From Thermomonas flagellata (GTDB lineage Bacteria; Pseudomonadota; Gammaproteobacteria; Xanthomonadales; Xanthomonadaceae), in NCBI RefSeq assembly GCF_022419185.1, contig NZ_JAJOZK010000002.1, positions 195,104 through 259,103 of the forward strand: a stretch of 64,000 nucleotides of DNA. Direction: 5' to 3'. The notes under the pieces are model-generated. The model had not been told where the DNA came from. It saw only the letters and a list, made by a program, of their open reading frames with translations, and searched no databases. Within the stretch, counting starts at the first letter, position 1. Every line of letters starts with the position of its first letter. Shown here piece by piece: positions 44,966-55,280 of the stretch. A program made the position numbers and the translations under genes.

Positions 44966-45005
44966 GGTCGATCCCCGCGTGCGCGGGGGAGACGTAGAGG
45001 ACGCC

Positions 45006-45122
45006 ATGGCCGACATCGCGGTGGTGTTCCACTGGCCGCCGGCAGCGATGGACGGCATGTTCCTCGATGAACTGATGGCATGGCGGGAGCGTGCCCGCGA
45101 GCGGCATGAGGCGTCGGAATGA
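45006..45122 (+). CDS. GpE-family phage tail protein (P2 gpE/E'-like)
   Basis: A 38-residue protein, MADIAVVFHWPPAAMDGMF then LDELMAWRERARERHEASE. The VFHWPP...L.EL..WRERA pattern and length of about 39 match Pfam-type Phage_P2_GpE, the tail-assembly protein encoded just upstream of the tape-measure gene (in P2 made by a -1 frameshift from gene E). The gene is complete but outside any tail operon. Confidence 0.8.
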   Translation: MADIAVVFHWPPAAMDGMFLDELMAWRERARERHEASE

Positions 45123-45137
45123 TGGTAGGATCGAATC

Positions 45138-45371
45138 ATGGACGCGCTGGTCTTTCTGGTGGTGGTGATGCTCGCCGTAGGCGTGCACTCAGCGCTCAAC
45201 GGCGTGATCAAGCCCCTGGTCGACCGCGCCTATCCCGTGGAGGCCACTCCCCCGCCGCTGCCGCCGACCCCGGCGGCCGTGGCGGTGAGCCGCCGCAGGC
45301 GTCGCCGCATCTGGTTCTGGCTTGCCGTGTGGATCCTGGTCGGCAACCTCATGCAGTTCGTCCCGTTCTGA
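45138..45371 (+). CDS. Small membrane protein in the phage fragment
   Basis: A 77-residue protein with two TM segments (ALVFLVVVMLAVGVHSALNG; IWFWLAVWILVGNLMQFV) separated by a Pro-rich stretch and an RRRRRRI basic patch. A GGTAGGA ribosome site precedes the ATG. It lies between the gpE-like and tape-measure starts, where some P2-like phages carry an extra ORF. The function is unknown. Confidence 0.6.
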   Translation: MDALVFLVVVMLAVGVHSALNGVIKPLVDRAYPVEATPPPLPPTPAAVAVSRRRRRRIWFWLAVWILVGNLMQFVPF

Positions 45372-45398
45372 CGCTGGCGCGGCCGGCAGAGGCCGGCC

Positions 45399-45565
45399 AT
45401 GGCTGACACCCTGCGTTTACAGGTCATCCTGGACCTGGTGGATCGGGCGGGGGCCAAGCTCCGCGCCATCACCGGCGGGAGCCACACCGCCGACAAGGCC
45501 ATGGCCGCGCTGCAGGACAGGCTGCGCGGGTTGCAGGCCCAGCAGCAGCAGATCGCCCGGCATCG
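45399..45565 (+). pseudogene. Truncated phage tail tape-measure protein (P2 gpT-like), first 56 codons
   Basis: The translation MADTLRLQVILDLVDRAGAK, then LRAITGGSHTADKAMAALQD, matches the N-terminus of P2-type tape-measure proteins (L-R-L-Q-V-I-L...VD...LRAI.G). The normal protein is many hundreds of residues long, but here the frame enters the CRISPR repeat at 45566 and stops soon after, so the gene is broken exactly at the repeat edge. Confidence 0.78.
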
Positions 45566-46691
45566 GGTCGATCCCCGCGTGCGCGGGGGAGACAATTTAA
45601 CGCGTTAAATTCCCAATCACGCCTAAGGTCGATCCCCGCGTGCGCGGGGGAGACCGCTGCGGGCGCTGGGCATGCCCTGGGCCGAAGGGTCGATCCCCGC
45701 GTGCGCGGGGGAGACGATGATGGCCATGGATCAGGTCTCCGGAGTGGAGGTCGATCCCCGCGTGCGCGGGGGAGACTTCATACGCGGTTTACACGCCTCA
45801 CAGGGGTGGGGTCGATCCCCGCGTGCGCGGGGGAGACCGGGCGCTGATACCTGATATGGCTATTTTCCGGGGTCGATCCCCGCGTGCGCGGGGGAGACGC
45901 CACCTCGTCGCCGGTGGCGGTGACGGGCAGGGGTCGATCCCCGCGTGCGCGGGGGAGACGCCAGGCGGCCGGCGGCGTAGCTGGTGGCCTGGGGTCGATC
46001 CCCGCGTGCGCGGGGGAGACCTGGTGGAACTGGACGGCACGCGGGTGGCGACGGGTCGATCCCCGCGTGCGCGGGGGAGACGAAGAACCCCCCCCCGCGG
46101 GGCGCTGATCCTGAGGTCGATCCCCGCGTGCGCGGGGGAGACTATCCGAGCATTGAGGTGTCGATATGCAGCAGGGGTCGATCCCCGCGTGCGCGGGGGA
46201 GACGGTTCGCCGCGGTCGGCACGCTGGCGACATACGGGTCGATCCCCGCGTGCGCGGGGGAGACGCGGACAGGTGCTCGCCGGAAATCTCCGGCGAGGGT
46301 CGATCCCCGCGTGCGCGGGGGAGACGATCTGCCGACCAGCACGCGGTATCCGGGTTCGGGTCGATCCCCGCGTGCGCGGGGGAGACCTGGAGATCGGCGA
46401 TGCCCGCGACATCGAACGGGGTCGATCCCCGCGTGCGCGGGGGAGACTCGGGGCCTGCCTCGCCGAACACGCCGACGCCGGGTCGATCCCCGCGTGCGCG
46501 GGGGAGACCCGCAGGCATCCAGTGCCGCGTTGTTCGTGGGGGGTCGATCCCCGCGTGCGCGGGGGAGACCAGCAAAAGTATGGTGCGACGATCCGACCGT
46601 GGGGTCGATCCCCGCGTGCGCGGGGGAGACCTGGGGGCGTGGCATGGCCTGCTGGCCTCTGGAGGTCGATCCCCGCGTGCGCGGGGGAGAC

Positions 46692-46752
46692 CCTAGTATC
46701 TAAGTCTCTGGCGATAAAGCCAAATTGTCAAAGAACCCTATTTCGCTCGGTA
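46692..46752 (-). promoter_or_regulatory. CRISPR leader
   Basis: A 61-bp AT-rich stretch between the last repeat and the cas2 stop, much less GC-rich than its surroundings. On the minus strand it contains TTGACA (46731-46726), a consensus -35, followed by AT-rich sequence (TTTATC, TTAGATACT) before the first repeat, so it probably carries the array promoter and the adaptation site. I could not identify a clear IHF site. Its length is close to the minimal leader of E. coli I-E. Confidence 0.75.
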
Positions 46753-47046
46753 TCAGCGTCTGCACGCAAGGAGCAGGCCGTCGGCTTCTTGGAAGTGGAT
46801 GGGTGGGGTGCCCAATACGCGTATGGCCTGCCCACCGGGGATGCCACGCTCTTGCCACAGGAGGATCAGCGCGGCATCGCGTTCGTTAGGAAACCATTGT
46901 TCGAGCACCTGCCAGACGCGATTCCGTACTGCGGGGGAGAGGCGAGGGGCGCTATAGACGCCAGGTGCCAGTTCAAGCATTACAGAGGCCAAAAAACCGC
47001 GTATCCGCGGGGATACGTTACGGGTCACCACCACCGTCATCGACAT
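46753..47046 (-). CDS. cas2: CRISPR-associated Cas2 (type I-E)
   Basis: A 97-residue protein of the I-E (CasF/ygbF) Cas2 type: MTVVVTRNVSPRIRGFLASVMLELAPGVY, NRVWQVLEQW and a C-terminal LLLWQERGIPGGQAIRVLGTPP strand region. It forms the Cas1-Cas2 spacer integrase complex. There is no DnaQ fusion. It overlaps the 3' end of cas1 by 29 nt. The stop is 61 bp from the first repeat. Confidence 0.95.
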   Translation of the reverse strand: MSMTVVVTRNVSPRIRGFLASVMLELAPGVYSAPRLSPAVRNRVWQVLEQWFPNERDAALILLWQERGIPGGQAIRVLGTPPIHFQEADGLLLACRR

Positions 47047-47917
47047 CGAAGAGCTCCTTGATGCGGTCGATCATGCGGGGGATCAGCTTCTCCTGCCGGA
47101 AGAGCCTGGCGGCGCGTTGTCGAACCTCACGCTCCAGATGAGCGGCCTTGCCATCAGCGAGTGCACGCACTGCGCCAAACGCCAGCGGAAGGGTGATGTC
47201 GACACGGTACAGATCGGCCACATCCAGAGTGAAGGCATTGCTCGAATCTTCGTGGATGAAGCCCAGCGGTGGCAGCGCGCCGACGGCAGCGACGGCAATG
47301 TCGGCGGCGGCTTCCACGAACGTTGCCGCATGGTTGATTGCCTGGTTCGCCGGGTCTGCGCTGTTTGGATTGTCACGGTCATAGCGGCGCCCCTGCCAGG
47401 GAATGCCGAACCGTTGCGCAACGAGCTTGTAGCTCTCCTTCATGCGCGCGCCTTCGATGCCGCGCAGGGTTTCGATGTCGCGATGCGGCAGCACGCGCCC
47501 GAAGCGCCAGGCGTAGAGGCGGCGTGCGGTGTCGAGCCGCAGTTTTGCGTCGGCCCAGCGCTCGGCGTGGCGGCGGGCGACGTCGGAGCGGCCTTGCCCC
47601 ATCGGCGGTGCGGTGTAGCTCTTGACGCCGCCTTCGCCGACGGCGGCGATCAGGGTGCCGTGGCGGGCGCAAAGGCGCAGCACATCCTGCGTCAGGCTGG
47701 TGCCCGGGCCGAGCAGAATCATCGACACCGCCTGATAGGGGATGGCGTAGTCGCCAGCGTCGAGCGTCTCGCTTTTGGCCGCCACGAAGCGCAGCGTGCC
47801 GTCCTCCACCGACAGCCTGCCGTACTCCAGCCACAACAGGCCGTGGCGGTCGGCGTGCGGGATGCGCGAGGCGGCCAGTCCCAGCCGCCCGTGCAACAGG
47901 CCAGGCGCGGGGCTCAT
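47018..47917 (-). CDS. cas1: CRISPR-associated integrase Cas1 (type I-E)
   Basis: A 299-residue spacer integrase. The metal ligands are in place: Glu155 (RGIEGARMKESY), His222 (GFIHEDSS) and Asp232/Asp235 (LDVADLYR). N-terminal beta domain: YGRLSVEDGTLRFVAAKSE. The ATG overlaps the cas6e stop by 4 nt. Nothing suggests inactivation, so the adaptation machinery looks functional, which bears on the odd insert in the array. Confidence 0.97.
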   Translation of the reverse strand: MSPAPGLLHGRLGLAASRIPHADRHGLLWLEYGRLSVEDGTLRFVAAKSETLDAGDYAIPYQAVSMILLGPGTSLTQDVLRLCARHGTLIAAVGEGGVKSYTAPPMGQGRSDVARRHAERWADAKLRLDTARRLYAWRFGRVLPHRDIETLRGIEGARMKESYKLVAQRFGIPWQGRRYDRDNPNSADPANQAINHAATFVEAAADIAVAAVGALPPLGFIHEDSSNAFTLDVADLYRVDITLPLAFGAVRALADGKAAHLEREVRQRAARLFRQEKLIPRMIDRIKELFDVDDGGGDP

Positions 47918-48612
47918 CGCGGCGGGCTGAGCAGGACCATGCCAAAACCGAAGGCGCGATGGCGGCCGATGCCGCGGGCCAGTTGCGCCGCGAAGGCCGT
48001 GCCGTCCTGCACCACGGCATCCGCGCCAAACAGGGCCTGCGGCCGCTCGACGAGGCGGAGGCGGTTGCCGCCGTTGCGGGCGCGGCGCAAGAGCCGGCTG
48101 CGGGCGCTCATTCCCAGCAGTTCCACCTGTTCCAGCCGCAGCGCCTCGCCCCATTGGGCCATGAACCATTGGCGATAGACCTCGGCGCGTGGCGGTGTGG
48201 CCGCGCCCGTGCGGTCCAGCGCCCGCAGGTACACGTCTTTCTCCTCGTCGTCCTTGCGCGAAACGGGGCAGACCAGAACCTCCAGCCGCAGGCGCTGGCC
48301 ACGACGCCACTCACCGGGCATGGGCTTGCTGGCCAGGCCTTCGGCATCCAGGGCCGCCCAGCCGCCGGGGGAGGCGAAGGCCTGCGCCCGCGCCAGAAGT
48401 TCTTCGGCGGGGATCCGGGCGTAGCCCAGCACCTCGTCGCGCCGCTCGAAGTAGCGGAAGGGCTTGGGCGCGTGTTCCCCGAACAGGGCCGCGAACCAAG
48501 CGTGCAGGGTGTAGCCCAGGGTTTCGTCTTCCTGGGCGATGCCGTGTTCATGGGCGAAGCGCAGCAGGCGCGGTGCATGGACGGGAATGCGCACGAGATG
48601 CAGCGCGCTCAT
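47914..48612 (-). CDS. cas6e: crRNA-processing endoribonuclease Cas6e (CasE)
   Basis: A 232-residue RAMP protein that cuts the repeat hairpin and stays on the crRNA. The start MSALHLVRIPVHAPRLLRFA carries the N-terminal RAMP strand; the DETLGYTLHAWFAALFGEHAPKPFRYF region (two pieces) is typical. His23 (AHEHGI) is near the usual catalytic His, and the C-terminal GIGRHRAFGFGMVLL is the Gly-rich loop. Slightly longer than the E. coli protein. Overlaps cas5e by 4 nt. Confidence 0.95.
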   Translation of the reverse strand: MSALHLVRIPVHAPRLLRFAHEHGIAQEDETLGYTLHAWFAALFGEHAPKPFRYFERRDEVLGYARIPAEELLARAQAFASPGGWAALDAEGLASKPMPGEWRRGQRLRLEVLVCPVSRKDDEEKDVYLRALDRTGAATPPRAEVYRQWFMAQWGEALRLEQVELLGMSARSRLLRRARNGGNRLRLVERPQALFGADAVVQDGTAFAAQLARGIGRHRAFGFGMVLLSPPR

Positions 48613-49325
48613 GCCAGTACCTCCAGAAAGCCCACGGCATGGCGCTGCGTGCCGCGGTGGATGTTGTTGCGCCAGTCGCGCGGGGCGTAGCGCTCTTCGA
48701 CCTGGGCACCTTGCCCCTCATCCAGCGGCCACAGGGCCGGGATGGGGCCGGGGCGCCGGCGCGGGCCGATATCGGCCAGTGGCTCGGCGGCGAGCGCGGC
48801 CCGCACCCCCTCCGCCTCGCGCCGCCCCAGCAGCAAGGGGCTCGCGGGCAGGCAGGGCTTGCGGCCGAGGAACAGCGGCCGGGCGGGAAAGCGCAATGCC
48901 TGCTCCAGGGCCGCAAGGCCGAGGTCGCCTTCTCCGTCCAGCGCCAGGGCGATGGTGGCGACGCCGTTGGCCCAGTGGTCGCGGTGGCGGATATGGGTGC
49001 CGGTGGCGTTCTTTTTGTCGCCTTTCCGATCCTCCCGGCGCCCACGCGTGGTCCAGCCGGTATCGACCAGGAAATCCTGCCCCAGGTCCACGGTCTGGTA
49101 GTCAGTCAGCAACTCCGGTTCGGCATCCCAGCGGGCGGCGAAGCGCAGCCGGTCCTGCAGGGCCTGCAGCCGGTGGGTGTCGCGGTGATCCCAGCCCAGG
49201 GCATTGCCCAAGAGGCCCGTGAGCATGGCCACGCCGGGGAAACGCCAGACCGGATGGTTCTGGTCCACCACCACGGCGCCGAAGCTCATCAAGGGCGCAT
49301 CGAGGCGCAGCAGCAGTACGTCCAT
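48609..49325 (-). CDS. cas5e: Cascade subunit Cas5e (CasD)
   Basis: A 238-residue RAMP protein that caps the crRNA 5' handle. LLLRLDAPLMSFGAVVVDQNHPVWRFPG (two segments), SMLTGLLGNALGW-like MLTGLLGNALGWDHRD, and FLGRKPCLPASPLLLG are the Cas5e signature stretches. It lies 9 bp after cas7e. An extended basic loop (TTRGRREDRKGDKKNATG, about 92-109) is probably the thumb. Confidence 0.95.
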   Translation of the reverse strand: MDVLLLRLDAPLMSFGAVVVDQNHPVWRFPGVAMLTGLLGNALGWDHRDTHRLQALQDRLRFAARWDAEPELLTDYQTVDLGQDFLVDTGWTTRGRREDRKGDKKNATGTHIRHRDHWANGVATIALALDGEGDLGLAALEQALRFPARPLFLGRKPCLPASPLLLGRREAEGVRAALAAEPLADIGPRRRPGPIPALWPLDEGQGAQVEERYAPRDWRNNIHRGTQRHAVGFLEVLA

Positions 49326-49334
49326 GCCGGGGCC

Positions 49335-50477
49335 TCATGCCTGGGGGCCAAAGATGGCATCCAGCGCCGCCGCCACGGCCTGCGGCACCGGCTGTTTGGG
49401 CGGGAGCTGCGCGGGCTGCTCGAGCGTGGTGGAGAGGTGTCGCGTCTCGCCCTCGGCTGGGTCGCCGTACATCGCATCAAGCTGCTTGACATAAGCCGCC
49501 AGGCGGCTGAGTGCCGCGTTGCGCAGGTCGCTCTTGCCTTCCGGGCGCAGGGCATCGAGGAAGGCGTTCGACAGCGCCCGCGGCTGGCTGCGTCCCGTTT
49601 CGAGGTAGAGCGCATCGGCCCAGGCGTAGGGCGCGGTGCTGCCCTTCTTCGCGCCGGGGCTCTGGCGCAGGATGCTGTCGATCAGGGCCTCCAGCACGCG
49701 CCGGGCGGTGCTGCCATCCTGGGCGCGCCAGTCCCTCGCCTCGCAGCCGGTGAGGTTGGAAACCAGCAGCGGTACATCCACGGCCACGTAGCCGTAGTAC
49801 AGGCCGGCGCCCAGTTCAGCTTGGTTGGCGTGCGCCGCGCCAGTTTCATCTTCGCGGTTGAGGTCGTCCACCACCGTGAAATAGTCCATCTCGGTGTTGG
49901 CGGTGTGCACAGTGAAGGCATGCGCGACATGCACCGGGGCATCGACGCGGGCGAGCAGGTCGGAGGTGACCATGCGGCCGAAGAGTGCGGCGGTCAGGCC
50001 CGCGGCCGACTTGCTCATCGCCTTCAGGTTGTCTTTTTCCTCCTTGGATTTCAGCCGCTCCTCCAGCGCTTTCTTTGGGTCACCCGCCTGGCTGGCCTCG
50101 CGCAGCAGTTGCACGAAGTAGTCGGCTTCACGCAGCCCAAAGAGCACCGGCTGGTTCAGATCGCCACCTTCCTTGACGCCGCCGTCGATCACGGCTTTGG
50201 CCAGCGGCTCGATCAGGCTCTTGGCCAGGTCTTCTGGCACGCCGGCCGCGACGGCGCGCGGCAGCACAGTTCGGGTAAAGAAGGCGCGGGTGCGCTGCCC
50301 GTCAGGGAGTTCGGGCAGCCGGGGGGCGAGGTCCTCGCGCCAGTGCCGCTTCAGGCACTGCGAGGAGACGCGCAGCCGCACGGCGTTGCCGAAGGGAATG
50401 CGCTTGGCCAATCCTGCGTCATCGCGGTTCAGCAGGCTGGCGGGGTAGGCGGTGAGGGTGTGGATCTGCAGAAACAT
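49335..50477 (-). CDS. cas7e: Cascade backbone subunit Cas7e (CasC)
   Basis: A 380-residue RAMP protein, present in six copies along the crRNA. The start MFLQIHTLTAYPASLLNRDD and IPFGNAVRLRVSSQCLKRHWRE are highly typical. ALFGRMVTSDLLARVDAPVHVAHAFTVH (two parts), DYFTVVDDL and GAAHANQAELGAGLYYGYVAVD match CasC. Length is slightly above the E. coli form. Confidence 0.97.
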   Translation of the reverse strand: MFLQIHTLTAYPASLLNRDDAGLAKRIPFGNAVRLRVSSQCLKRHWREDLAPRLPELPDGQRTRAFFTRTVLPRAVAAGVPEDLAKSLIEPLAKAVIDGGVKEGGDLNQPVLFGLREADYFVQLLREASQAGDPKKALEERLKSKEEKDNLKAMSKSAAGLTAALFGRMVTSDLLARVDAPVHVAHAFTVHTANTEMDYFTVVDDLNREDETGAAHANQAELGAGLYYGYVAVDVPLLVSNLTGCEARDWRAQDGSTARRVLEALIDSILRQSPGAKKGSTAPYAWADALYLETGRSQPRALSNAFLDALRPEGKSDLRNAALSRLAAYVKQLDAMYGDPAEGETRHLSTTLEQPAQLPPKQPVPQAVAAALDAIFGPQA

Positions 50478-50499
50478 CAGCGGCTCCTTGCGGTGAGGA

Positions 50500-51018
50500 T
50501 CAGTCGTTCTTGGGCAGATGGCGGTAGAAGGCCTGGGCGATGCGGCGATGCACGGCTTCGCGCTTGTCGGCGTCGGTGGTGAGCAGGAAGCGGGCGGCCT
50601 CGGTGAGGTCGAAGCGCTCGCCCTTGGCGGCGAGGAAGCGCACGGCGGCCATGAACAGGTCTGGCCGCACGTCGTCGGGGGCGGAGAGCAGCCGTTCCAG
50701 CCGGCCTTCGGCAAAGCCGCTTTCGGCCAGCGCTTGGCCCCAGGGGCGCCCGGGTGTGTGGGCCTCCGCGCCCAGCGTGGCAAGGCTCCAGGCCAGCTGC
50801 ATCCAGGCTTGGGTCGCAGCCTCGGCGGGAAGGTCGGCGTCGATCTGGCGCAGCCACAGGCGGTAGAAGGCCAGCGGCAGCGGCTGGCCCGGCGCCCAGC
50901 GGCGCAGCGCGGCGCGGTCGCCATTGGGATAGTGCTCGGCGCCGATGGCATGCGCCAGGCGGCCCACGGTGCTGGCGAGGGGCGATGCCTTGGGGGATGT
51001 GGGGGCGGGTTCGCTCAT
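50500..51018 (-). CDS. cse2: Cascade small subunit Cse2 (Cas11e)
   Basis: A 172-residue helical protein, two copies per Cascade. GDRAALRRWAPGQPLPLAFYRLWL, TLGAEAHTPGRPWGQALAESGF, RLERLLSA and VRFLAAKGERFDLTEAARFLL are the CasB pattern. Its stop is 22 bp before cas7e and its start overlaps the cas8e stop by 4 nt. Confidence 0.94.
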   Translation of the reverse strand: MSEPAPTSPKASPLASTVGRLAHAIGAEHYPNGDRAALRRWAPGQPLPLAFYRLWLRQIDADLPAEAATQAWMQLAWSLATLGAEAHTPGRPWGQALAESGFAEGRLERLLSAPDDVRPDLFMAAVRFLAAKGERFDLTEAARFLLTTDADKREAVHRRIAQAFYRHLPKND

Positions 51019-52616
51019 ACCGTTTGCTCCTCGGGTTCGGGGGTTTCGGTGGCGGCGCGCCCCGGCAGGGGCAGGCCGGCCTTGTGCAACATGCCGCGCC
51101 AGGCGCTCTGCGCCTGCGTCAGCGCCCGCCAGCGCCGGTTGGACGGCAGCGGCAGACGGGCGGCGGCCGCATCGAGCAGGGCCTGGCCGGCATCGACGAG
51201 GCGCTGCTGCCAGTCATGGCGCACCGCCTCATGGGCCTCGTCGGCGCCGCGCCAGAGGGTGGGGAAGTAGTGCGGTTCCCAGGTCTTTGCAAAGCCGGCG
51301 CGTGCCGCCTTGATCCATGTCTCGACGCGCTCGAAATCCGCTTTGTCCGGCCCGCCCTCGCTCAAGACCGTCAGCGCCGTGGCCAGGGCCCGTTGCACGT
51401 CCTTGGCATCGCCCAGCAGCTGCTGCCCGAGTTTCCCCAGCGTCTCCCGGTTCGCCTTTTGCAGCAGGGCGCGGCGGGCTTTGGCGGGAACGGGGATCTG
51501 GGCGCGGTGAAAGCCTTCCGTGGTGCCCTGCCCGCGCACCAGGCAGGACGCCACGAACCAGCCATCGCCCTCACCTGCCGGTGGCCGTTGCAGCGGGGTG
51601 AGCTCGAAGCCCTGTTCGAACAGCAGGTCGGTTAGGCGCTGGGGGGTGAATCCGTCATCGGAAAGGGTGAGGGCGGATCGACCTTTCTTTTTGTCGCCGA
51701 CGTTGATGGCGGTCCAGGGGTCGCCGATGTCGCCGTTCTCGGCCGTCTTGGGGCCGATCTGCCGCGCCTCGCTGGTGGCCCCCAGTGCCATCAACCCGCC
51801 CTCTGCACGCGGCCACAGGCGGATCGGGCGGGCGGCTTCGATGAACCAGGGTTCGAGCTGATCGAGGCTAAGGTGGTGCTGCTTGCGGTTCCAGTGGGTC
51901 AGCCAGGTGAGCACGATGCCGCGCTGCGGATAGCGCGACTCGCGGCAGACTGGCTCGCGAAGGCGGGCGAGCGCCCGGGTTTCGTCGGCGAATCGGGCCG
52001 AGGGGTGGAGGTCGCGCACCCAGGCGGCGATGCTGCGGCTGGCAAATCCGCCGTTCATGCGCACGATGCCGTAGTTGCCCTTGCCGAGAAAACCACTGGT
52101 GGTCTGCAACACCACCAACGCGAAAATCCAGGCCTCCACCGAATCCGCCGTGACGCGCGCCATCTTGACGTCGTGGTTCTTGGCGGTGACGAGCACGTCC
52201 AACTCATCCGGCGAGCTGGCCTTGGGGTCGAACACGGTCTGCCCGCGGCTGGTTTTCACCCCGTAATCTGCCGCCTCGGCCTCCCAGCTTTTCCACGGGT
52301 GCTGCATGAAGGCCGGCTTGGTTACGTCCTCCACCACCAGCTGCCAGGCCTCGGGAATACCGTCGGACAGATCGAGCAGTCCCTCGCGCCAGTAGGCCGC
52401 GTCGGTGGGCAGGGCGTTGGTGGGGCGTCGCGCCTGGATGCTGGCGGCCAGCTGCACCAGGAACACATGCCAGGGGTCGGCCTGATGGGCGCGCAGCCCG
52501 GTGTAGCCCTCGATCTGGCCGGCGCTCAGCGCAGCCAATAACTCGGGCAAATTCAGGCGCTGCGATCCCTGCGCGGTGCGCACGCCGATCAAGGGGTCAT
52601 TGAGCAAGTCGTGCAT
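51015..52616 (-). CDS. cas8e: Cascade large subunit Cas8e (Cse1)
   Basis: A 533-residue PAM-recognition subunit. LNDPLIGVRTAQGSQRLNLPELLAAL, AHQADPWHVFLVQLAA, AFMQHPW, FLGKGNYGIVRMNGGFASR and the glycine loop region correspond to Cse1; the C-terminal four-helix bundle is also present. The start MHDLLNDPLIGV lies within the last 20 nt of cas3, giving a short overlap. It recruits Cas3 after R-loop formation. Confidence 0.96.
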   Translation of the reverse strand: MHDLLNDPLIGVRTAQGSQRLNLPELLAALSAGQIEGYTGLRAHQADPWHVFLVQLAASIQARRPTNALPTDAAYWREGLLDLSDGIPEAWQLVVEDVTKPAFMQHPWKSWEAEAADYGVKTSRGQTVFDPKASSPDELDVLVTAKNHDVKMARVTADSVEAWIFALVVLQTTSGFLGKGNYGIVRMNGGFASRSIAAWVRDLHPSARFADETRALARLREPVCRESRYPQRGIVLTWLTHWNRKQHHLSLDQLEPWFIEAARPIRLWPRAEGGLMALGATSEARQIGPKTAENGDIGDPWTAINVGDKKKGRSALTLSDDGFTPQRLTDLLFEQGFELTPLQRPPAGEGDGWFVASCLVRGQGTTEGFHRAQIPVPAKARRALLQKANRETLGKLGQQLLGDAKDVQRALATALTVLSEGGPDKADFERVETWIKAARAGFAKTWEPHYFPTLWRGADEAHEAVRHDWQQRLVDAGQALLDAAAARLPLPSNRRWRALTQAQSAWRGMLHKAGLPLPGRAATETPEPEEQTV

Positions 52617-55164
52617 CGTTTTTCTCCAGGCCGAGGCGGGTATAGCGGAAGGCCGTCTCACCGATTGAGAACGAGAAGCCCGCAGCCTCCTGTCGTCCCT
52701 GCACTTGCTCGGGCACGTTGCGCTCGCCAAGCCAATGCGCGGGGATCGAGATGCGCGAGATCATCGCGCCAAGGGGCGAACGCATCGGCGCGGCCAACGG
52801 GATGTCGAAGGTCGGTCGGCCAAGGCGGGTGAGCACGCGTTCGCCTTTGTCGGCGTAGTGCAGGTCGCCGAACGGCCGGTCGTCGACGACCGAGCGCAGC
52901 GCCTGGCGGATTTCGCTGAGTTCTTTGCCTTCGATGGCCGCGCCGTGCGCCGGCCAAGGTTCGGGCAACCGGGCGAAGCACTCCGGATGGGTGGCGGCTT
53001 CGATGCGCGCGCGGGCCTGGGCCGGGAGCCGCAAGACGGGATCTGCGGCCAGCGATTGCCAGGTCAGCGCGAGGACGCGCCCGTCCGGGTAGACGCTGCC
53101 CAGCCCGGCCGGGCCGCACAGCAACCCATCGCGGGTAAGGAGGGCGTCGAGGTCGCGGTCGGGCACGCGCACCAGCACCCGCGGCGTCTCGAAGCCCTTG
53201 GGGCGCTCGGCACGGGTGTGCCGGTGCAGGCGGCCGATGCGCTGAATCAGCACGTCCATCGGCGCCAAGTCGGTGATCAGCCAGTCGGCATCGATGTCCA
53301 GGCTCTGCTCCAGGGTCTGCGTGCCGACGAGCAGGCGAGGGCCGGCGGGGGAACCTTTGCCCAGCTGTGCCGTCACGGCCGCATCGAGCCGTTCGCGGTC
53401 TTCGCGCGCGAAGCGGCCGTGATGCGGACAGCGCACGCCATCGAGGCCGAACAGGGCGGGTAGCAGCTCGGGGTGATGTTGCTCCAGATACGCCTCGACG
53501 CCGCGGAACAACGCATTGGCCCGCGCCACGGTGTTGCACACCACCAGCACCCGCGCGCCGGCTTGCAGCGCCGCGGCCAGATCCGGCAATAGCGCGTCGT
53601 CGTGCGTCAATGTCGGCGATGTCGTCACCTCGATACGGCGCTCGCGCGGGGCGGGCATCGGCCAGGCGCCTTGCCGCGCGGACAGCAAGGGATAGGGTCG
53701 TTGCACGGCCTGGGCAAACGGCACCGGGTCGCGTTCGAAATACGCCGCGGCAGCGGATTCGCCGAGGGTCGCCGACAGCAGCAGCGCCCAGCCGCCGCGG
53801 GCGAGATGCCCGCGCAACAGCGCGCGCAGCACCTCGCGCATGTAGGGGTCGGAAGCATGGACTTCATCGACCACCAGCAGATGCCGATCCAAGCAGACCG
53901 AGCGCAGCAGGCTGTGCTTGACCTGCAGGGCCGACAGCAGCGCCTGGTCGATGGTGCCGACCGCGATCGGCGCGGCGAGGAAGCGCTTGGGCCGCTCGGC
54001 CGACCACAGGCGCTCGCGGCGCTGATCGGCCGCGCTGTCGTCCCACAGCGTGCCCTGCGGGTCGGTCAGCATCGTGCCGACCGCCTGTCCGTCCACCTGG
54101 ACATAACCAGGGGCGGCCAGCAGCACCGGTCCAGGACGGTCGTCACCGTCGAAAGCGGAGTGCACGGCCGCGAGTACCCGGCCATACAGCTCGCGCGCCG
54201 CTACGCGCGTGGGCAAGGCGAAGTACAGCCCATCGACCTTTCCTTGCGCGTACAGACGGAAGAACCAGGCCAATGCCGCTTCGGTCTTGCCCGAGCCGGT
54301 GTCGGACTCGGCCAGCAGCAGCCGGGTGTCCTCATCGGGGGCGATCTCCCCGGCCAGCGCGGCTTGCAACGGCGTGGGGCAGAACTTGAACGTGTCTTTG
54401 AACGGCTTGGGCTGGCGATGCGGCGGAGGCGACAGCCCGATGCTGCGCAAGGCCCGCCGCGCTGCCGCCCGAGCCAGCGCCATGCGGTCTTCGGTCGGGC
54501 TGGCCCGATAGGGGAAGAACTGCGTGTCCGAGCCGATCCAGTCGGCCAGCATCACCAGCCCGGCAAAACGCTGTTGCAGCGCAGCAGTGGCGTCGATCGG
54601 CGGAATGTCGGGGTCGAAAGCCGCAGGAAACACGTTGCGTGCGGCCGCTGCCAGGGCATCGAGCGCCGCCAGCGGGTCGTAGCCAGAAGCAGCGGTCCAC
54701 CAGCGCCTGGCCGAGCGGTCGATGCCAGCACCGCGATAGTCGTTTTTCGATACCGGGCGGCCGTGATGGGAGACGCTGGCCAGCAGCACTTGCAGCGCCT
54801 GTTCCTCGTCGCCGAACCAGCCGGCAATATCGGTCAGCAGCGCGGTCCATCCGGGCGGCCGGAGGTCTTGCAGGTCGAACAGCAGGGCCGCGGCTTCAAG
54901 CACATGCCCCGCGGTGTCGCGCGGGGCTGGATCGATCTTGGCCTGGAAGCCGCGGTTGCACTTGCCGAAGTCATGCAGGAAAGCGACGACGGCAAGGCGG
55001 TCACACTGGGTGGGGCTGAGGGTTCCGAGCCGTGCGATCAGTGGCAGATCGCACAGATGGCGGAATGTGACGGCGACATCCAGGCAATGGTCGGCCAGCG
55101 GGTGACGATCACCGCCGGCTGGACGGAATTTTCCCCAGGGCGGCTGCGGCTTCATGGCATCCAT
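52597..55164 (-). CDS. cas3: CRISPR-associated nuclease-helicase Cas3
   Basis: An 855-residue enzyme that unwinds and shreds target DNA. The N-terminal HD nuclease has His26 (HPLADHCLDV), His64-Asp65 (AFLHDFGKCNRGF) and His133-His134 (VSHHGRP), then LADWIGSD. The helicase has Walker A ESDTGSGKTEA (286-296), ALPTRVAARELY, DEVH at 433-436, LLSATLGES and QRIGRLHRHTRAERP. I chose the ATG at 55164, preceded by AAAGGGGGTG; an ATG three codons later is possible. It is the first gene of the cas operon, all on the minus strand. Confidence 0.97.
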   Translation of the reverse strand: MDAMKPQPPWGKFRPAGGDRHPLADHCLDVAVTFRHLCDLPLIARLGTLSPTQCDRLAVVAFLHDFGKCNRGFQAKIDPAPRDTAGHVLEAAALLFDLQDLRPPGWTALLTDIAGWFGDEEQALQVLLASVSHHGRPVSKNDYRGAGIDRSARRWWTAASGYDPLAALDALAAAARNVFPAAFDPDIPPIDATAALQQRFAGLVMLADWIGSDTQFFPYRASPTEDRMALARAAARRALRSIGLSPPPHRQPKPFKDTFKFCPTPLQAALAGEIAPDEDTRLLLAESDTGSGKTEAALAWFFRLYAQGKVDGLYFALPTRVAARELYGRVLAAVHSAFDGDDRPGPVLLAAPGYVQVDGQAVGTMLTDPQGTLWDDSAADQRRERLWSAERPKRFLAAPIAVGTIDQALLSALQVKHSLLRSVCLDRHLLVVDEVHASDPYMREVLRALLRGHLARGGWALLLSATLGESAAAAYFERDPVPFAQAVQRPYPLLSARQGAWPMPAPRERRIEVTTSPTLTHDDALLPDLAAALQAGARVLVVCNTVARANALFRGVEAYLEQHHPELLPALFGLDGVRCPHHGRFAREDRERLDAAVTAQLGKGSPAGPRLLVGTQTLEQSLDIDADWLITDLAPMDVLIQRIGRLHRHTRAERPKGFETPRVLVRVPDRDLDALLTRDGLLCGPAGLGSVYPDGRVLALTWQSLAADPVLRLPAQARARIEAATHPECFARLPEPWPAHGAAIEGKELSEIRQALRSVVDDRPFGDLHYADKGERVLTRLGRPTFDIPLAAPMRSPLGAMISRISIPAHWLGERNVPEQVQGRQEAAGFSFSIGETAFRYTRLGLEKNDARLAQ

Positions 55165-55280
55165 GCAATACACCCCCTTTGGGTGGCCGCGTGAGGCGAT
55201 TATTCCTTGATCGCAGCGCTCACGGATACCAAGCAACGGTATCAGAACTGTGGTCTGAAGGATGACCCTGAAGCCTGCCG

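Follow-up and report, generated by a model that had tools for sequence, protein, structure and literature searches.

The window analysed here, a stretch of 64,000 nucleotides from Thermomonas flagellata, contains a CRISPR array whose leader-distal interval holds 572 bp of a P2-like phage tail module, and the question raised by this locus is how phage genes came to be enclosed, at base precision, by two perfect repeats. A preliminary description of this DNA, made from the sequence alone, proposed either the capture of a long prespacer or the recombination of a phage fragment into the array, and knew of no standard explanation. Our analysis leads us to favor, tentatively and with slightly less than even confidence, the interpretation that the block was left behind when the array underwent homologous recombination with a P2-like phage. 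If so, and we hold this with the same reserve, recombination between spacers and protospacers, an event type that has been published, would supply the missing explanation for the base-precise edges.

The array and its cas genes

In the array, at positions 44966-46691, a 28-nt repeat (GGTCGATCCCCGCGTGCGCGGGGGAGAC) recurs 20 times without a mismatch, its copies separated by 18 intervals of exactly 33 nt and one of 572 nt (44994-45565, with no strand assigned), where ordinary spacers leave 32-34 nt between repeats. The arrangement outlined in the preliminary description was fully reproduced: the terminal, leader-distal repeat (44966..44993, minus strand) and the repeat on the other side of the insert (45566-45593) are both perfect, both edges of the insert are flush with them, and the remainder of the array continues regularly with 19 perfect repeats and 18 spacers of 33 nt (45566..46691, minus strand). 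It had also been remarked that the difference between 600 and 61 cannot be divided evenly by 61, which is correct as arithmetic and has no bearing on the origin of the block.

The orientation of the array goes beyond what had been described earlier. The crRNAs are read from the minus strand and the leader lies on the cas2 side, to the right of the array (46692..46752, minus strand; placed by its position and A+T-rich by eye), and it follows that the 572-bp interval is number 19 of 19 counted from the leader, that is, the leader-distal and oldest one. The 27-nt core of the repeat, searched with up to 3 mismatches, had no copy outside the array in the 2.52-Mb assembly. Spacer S18 (45594-45626) holds a palindrome, AATTTAACGCGTTAAATT, and no protospacer was seen for it in the loci scanned.

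Beyond the leader region, and on the minus strand throughout, lie cas2e (46753..47046; TIGR01873, 1e-20) and cas1e (47018..47917; TIGR03638, 9.9e-93), which the preliminary description had called intact in appearance, followed by cas6e (47914..48612; TIGR01907, 4.2e-9, under the curated cut-off but in its expected place) and cas5e (48609..49325; TIGR01868, 3.5e-43). The next open frame (49335..50951) contains cas7e (TIGR01869, 9.5e-79), and the true start of this gene is probably internal to the frame because the family match begins only at residue 160. The series is completed by cse2 (casB, 50500..51018; TIGR02548, 2e-14), cse1 (casA, 51015..52730; TIGR02547, 6.9e-24) and cas3 (52597..55236; TIGR01587, 3.7e-53, and TIGR01596, 6.8e-19). 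The locus is of type I-E, with cas3, cse1, cse2, cas7, cas5, cas6e, cas1 and cas2 accompanying an array of 28/29-nt repeats.

Gene content of the insert and its phage relatives

The plus strand of the insert encodes a complete P2 gpE-like tail gene (45006..45122; Pfam PF06528, 3.2e-20; PHROG 6416, 6.8e-21), as stated in the preliminary description, followed by a 77-aa small ORF of the tail module (45138..45371) and by the start of the tape-measure gene T (45399..45565; PHROG 28, 5.7e-10), which is cut at the repeat. The truncated gene had been credited with 56 codons, and 55 whole codons plus 2 nt were counted. The 77-aa ORF had been called a small membrane protein; it is indeed hydrophobic by eye and has a DNA relative in the congener locus L012, but no significant match to any family was obtained for it. 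The three ORFs scanned in the insert thus correspond to gpE, to no family and to the tape measure, with no transposase among them, and insertion of an IS element was rejected as the origin of the block, in line with the earlier assertion that it is not IS sequence.

The closest relative found was a viral contig from IMG/VR (L410), which aligns to bases 1-555 of the insert at 67%, extends past both edges and carries a tape-measure start 62% identical to that of the insert at the protein level. Since this contig runs through and beyond both edges, the insert reads as a continuous stretch of phage tail-module DNA that was cut by the repeats at both ends. In a search of 395 genomes of the family, many gpE-region matches start at insert base 1, as expected if the left edge cuts conserved phage sequence. 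The continuation of a matching phage on both sides, which the preliminary description had suggested looking for, was thereby found in L410, although the source phage itself was not. Among annotated phages only gpE matches of about 90-110 bp at 73-80% were recovered, and in viral contigs the T start had a single relative (40%) and the 77-aa ORF none. One search with a degenerate pattern returned 65 viral contigs unrelated to the insert, and two further searches of this kind returned 51 viral contigs, with L410 as the closest. Relatives of the T start were present in 32 of 394 other genomes of the family (best 48%), and none was found among genome contigs. Within the assembly, the block has no further complete copy, the only two other matches measuring 55 and 38 bp.

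Some features of the related tail modules are recorded here in their own right. In L012, L016 and L027 a motif like GATGGTAGGATCG stands upstream of the small ORF that follows gpE, and L027 carries a near copy of it, TAGTGGTAGGATCG, before a second ORF, a duplication which suggests a slot for small genes after gpE in these modules. Besides, positions 1501-1804 of L012 retain only the middle of the module, from the end of gpE to the start of T, next to unrelated DNA, and represent a separate phage-module remnant.

Spacer features at the two edges

Half of the 18 short spacers (S3, S4, S6, S7, S11, S12, S13, S15 and S16) match, with 0-5 mismatches, a single region of the congener G051 (G051:C1, about 253.8-268 kb; L084, L085), and all nine protospacers lie on one strand. 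Clustering of protospacers on one strand is the pattern of primed adaptation, and the matches to this region are a signature of that process. We take the region to be prophage-like, as its proteins have, by eye, the look of a Mu-type head and a lambda-type tail. Because AA immediately precedes the 33 nt on the 5' side in eight of the nine protospacers, it is taken as the working PAM of the system; the exception is S7, which matches perfectly and is preceded by GC. Weaker matches of spacers outside G051, with 4-5 mismatches, had AA in one case of five (L075, and not L067, L070, L074 or L081), while the 18 short spacers had no match at up to 5 mismatches in 58 P2-like or related contigs. The first nucleotide of the short spacers is C in 14 of the 18 and T in the other 4. 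Spacer S7 (46265-46297), the only one of the nine without AA in G051, contains an inverted repeat, CTCGCCGGAGATTTCCGGCGAG.

At the trailer side, the outermost 33 nt of the insert (44994..45026, minus strand; hereafter segment A, a putative ancestral spacer) have AA directly 5' on the crRNA strand. This dinucleotide (45027..45028, minus strand; TT on the plus strand) lies within the insert and would be the native PAM of segment A, judged by the PAM derived from the G051 protospacers. It was spotted, exactly 33 nt inward from the trailer-side repeat, before the PAM had been derived, and TT on the plus strand makes up 11 of the 571 dinucleotides of the insert (1.9%). A segment of spacer length is here continuous with PAM and phage flank, and this edge of the insert resembles an ordinary spacer that has kept its own PAM. 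The AA is conserved in 27 gpE-region loci (and in L089, a refetch of one of them); since it sits in a conserved codon, this conservation adds no evidence, and it is the position of the AA that does.

The leader-side edge is less telling. Its outermost 33 nt (45533..45565, minus strand; segment B, the second putative ancestral spacer) begin with C, as do most of the short spacers, and this fits the PAM-derived base. The first-base argument for segment B is weak, because four intervals of other arrays that were set aside in the survey below (L231a, L231b, L377 and L382) also start with the base that dominates in their arrays. The PAM of segment B would fall outside the insert, and none of the 49 tape-measure homologs that could be placed there without gaps has TT at the position concerned, which is occupied by CG in 20, CA in 11, GC in 5 and other dinucleotides in fewer; a further 15 homologs could not be placed at this edge and were left out. 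GC stands there in L410, the closest homolog. These counts have to be read with the facts that TT is rare in such phage DNA anyway and that the 49 homologs are distant.

Large intervals in other arrays and the origin of the insert

The preliminary description had pointed to oversized spacers in related strains. Within the genus, the 27-nt repeat core is absent from all 24 other genomes; elsewhere such intervals do occur. The survey covered the surroundings of Cas1e relatives and some related arrays, in sets of 36, 80 (the best 80 of 482, from named genome contigs), 29 and 1 loci, and yielded 128 arrays: 100 with 3271 normal spacers, 27 with 1287, and L456, an array of 84 repeats in which no interval was unusual. 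One of the 128 is a duplicate, as L245 and L255 are the same array. Most arrays were fetched through a Cas1e relative and seven loci (L244-L250) through array similarity, so that type I-E is established for part of them. Intervals containing N (three in L275, two in L279 and one in L366), those below 300 bp and gaps above 6000 bp (100-array set) or 8000 bp (27-array set) were excluded; intervals of 87-95 bp, also left out of the count, fit two spacers around a degenerate repeat.

Outside the window, 14 intervals above 300 bp and free of N were found in 12 arrays (L215, L225, L231 with two, L242 with two, L248, L249, L252, L303, L304, L371, L377 and L382). AA stands at the distal offset of 33 in five of them (L242a, L242b, L248, L249 and L382), against 0.76 expected (P 5.8e-4), and among 300 offsets this is the maximum, all others giving 4 or fewer. 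With the window included the count is 6 of 15 against 0.78 expected (P 5.7e-5), again with 4 or fewer at other offsets. A core set of 11 intervals, window included, leaves out L231a (IS-like), L231b, L377 and L382, which are IS-like, TA-like or two-locus by eye; in this set without the window the AA is present in 4 of 10 (P 8.6e-4). All these P values are optimistic, because L242a and L242b share an array and L248 and L249 a genome. L382, which has the AA, is A+T-rich and probably consists of two arrays with host genes between them, as judged by eye.

In the window, L242a, L242b, L248 and L249 the AA is combined with a first base that is the dominant one of the array (C in the window and G elsewhere). 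L215, L225 and L252 have no AA, and they start with a base that few or none of the normal spacers of the same array start with; L303, L304 and L371 also have no AA but start with an ordinary base; and L231a, L231b, L377 and L382 start with the G that dominates in their own arrays. Large intervals without AA may have a different origin. Concerning their content, foreign-looking genes were detected in L215 (minor head protein, 4.3e-10), L303 (primase, 6.2e-31), L242b (PHROG 2266, 2.2e-26) and L248 (a resolvase), together with a weak tape-measure match in L242a (0.012) and no PHROG tail match in L252. When compared with annotated phages, the intervals of L252, L242 and L215 gave no match and that of L248 gave the resolvase match only, while in viral sequences an ORF of L242b had two relatives (34-41%) and L242a had none. 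Across six genomes from the genus of G589, all matches fell in G589, at its own locus and at short repeats; across four from the genus of G056, a single match of 103 bp was seen apart from those in G056.

The position of the large intervals is biased. Eight of the 15 are the very last interval of their array, against 0.78 expected, and L231a, which is IS-like (96 of 113), and L382 (45 of 53) are likewise closer to the trailer than to the leader, while none of 14 falls in the first third; L248 (19 of 52) belongs to an array that runs to the contig start, with its trailer end out of sight. This bias would reflect survival, since no other spacer is silenced when the insertion lies at the trailer end.

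The origin that we favor can be outlined as follows. The array would formerly have held, at its trailer end, segments A and B as two spacers on the same strand, adjacent or nearly so and both derived from one P2-like phage. DNA of this phage would then have recombined with the array at both A and B, each offering 33 bp of identity, either by a double crossover or by Campbell integration followed by excision, so that the repeat between A and B, with any spacers located there, was replaced by the native phage DNA between the two protospacers, giving the product repeat-A-phage-B-repeat. The edges would be base-precise because they are old Cas1-Cas2 spacer boundaries, and the insertion could persist because, at the trailer end, it costs little transcription. 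We infer that B was once a spacer and that the joining took place by recombination instead of acquisition. Five pairs of adjacent spacers in the present array both match the G051 region, two of them in the right order (S15/S16 and S12/S13, with targets 1.7 and 2.8 kb apart). Against the proposal stand the nine of 15 large intervals without AA at offset 33 and the lengths of the blocks, which in the window, L242a, L242b and L249 are 570-940 bp, compared to 1.7-12 kb between the targets of adjacent spacers in the G051 region; moreover, a sister array that keeps A and B apart was not found. Integration of a phage through a single spacer (Campbell) is a different matter and was rejected for the window, since the first and last 33 nt of the insert would have to be the same, and the first 20 nt were absent from the last 60 nt in all 14 intervals checked (window included, L231b left out).

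The same product, with the PAM of A inside the insert, would arise if Cas1-Cas2 had loaded protospacer A and integrated its non-PAM end normally while the PAM side remained on a phage fragment of several hundred bp, whose far end, trimmed at another PAM (B) or untrimmed, was joined to the other side of the repeat. Over-long acquisition of this kind needs neither earlier spacers nor a PAM at B, many insert sizes (385-1601 bp) resemble those of fragments, and the two oldest spacers of L242 are two such intervals in a row. However, the Cas1-Cas2 complex of type I-E has a 33-bp ruler. Since this ruler measures both ends within one complex, the distant end would require a second one; a ruler is described in PMC5059440. 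The lack of large intervals in the first third of the arrays is likewise at odds with acquisition, which occurs at the leader, unless the loss of trailer-ward spacers has masked a leader-side origin. This route is the main rival, and the observations accord with both; we regard it as rather unlikely, and recombination is preferred to it because only normal spacers and a published type of event are needed. As to the alternatives of the preliminary description, recombination explains the base-precise edges, whereas a plain long prespacer does not predict a trailer-side edge whose last 33 nt resemble a canonical protospacer with the AA inside. Phage DNA might also have entered the array at its old end by ordinary insertion or by illegitimate recombination, the AA at offset 33 being a coincidence; this would agree with the absence of the PAM from most large intervals, with L231a, by eye an IS5-type insertion in an array, and with the insertions and deletions that gather at leader-distal ends according to the accessible text of PMC4869251; however, the insert meets a perfect repeat flush at either edge, and the AA, with a chance of about 2% at that place here, is enriched at the same offset in other arrays, so that we consider this explanation improbable. 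An assembly artefact is very improbable indeed: the assembly is a draft of 15 contigs, but similar blocks are present in unrelated genomes, the block has no other full copy in the assembly and the repeat occurs only in this array, so that no shared sequence for a flush misjoin is evident.

Recombination between spacers and their phage targets was reportedly described in staphylococci by Varble et al. 2019 (Nat Microbiol), in connection with the transfer of CRISPR loci, and Varble et al. 2021 are said to have described prophage integration into CRISPR loci of Streptococcus pyogenes. The former study is cited for spacer-protospacer recombination in PMC8616872 and PMC10434264 and, as far as these citing sources go, the two cases share recombination through a short identity of spacer and target that joins phage DNA to an array, while here two spacers would serve as arms in a type I-E system and a small, permanent phage block would be left. 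From what is available on it, the Streptococcus case has in common with ours phage DNA within an array, and differs in being a prophage, whereas the insert is a fragment of 572 bp that lacks an integrase gene. Aberrant spacers of non-standard length also arise at acquisition when the complex slips or flips, but the slips described in the accessible parts of PMC5059440 amount to a few nt and not to hundreds. Finally, IS and other insertions, often leader-distal, enlarge intervals at the trailer end in the portions of PMC4869251 and PMC10359306 at hand, in contrast to the insert described here, in which no transposase was found, the repeats are intact and the edge lies at a spacer boundary. In the literature that could be searched, partly through excerpts, no report was found in which intact repeats enclose a phage fragment that has a PAM one spacer length from its edge, which is weak evidence of novelty, most subscription journals lying outside the search. 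What is known is recombination between arrays and phages, and what is new is a signature of spacer selection at one edge of the insert that is enriched in other arrays.

It is possible, although we consider it rather doubtful, that throughout Pseudomonadota phage and plasmid DNA is trapped time and again in type I-E arrays, as repeat-bounded giant spacers, through recombination of spacer pairs with their targets. If this were true, the array would be a site of phage-host recombination besides a memory, some oversized intervals would be fossils of recombination between immune memory and target, and each block would preserve an old spacer together with its original PAM surroundings, so that PAMs could be read directly from arrays. 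It would also show natural recombination through 33-bp identities and account for the disappearance of repeats from arrays and the arrival of phage genes in them.

Two of the surveyed arrays have further peculiarities. An interval of L231 (18049-18547) contains repeated units, 154 bp apart, each opening with the initial part of a CRISPR repeat. At the trailer end of L242 (11948-13805), two giant intervals of 889 and 940 bp follow one another, both with AA-G at spacer distance.
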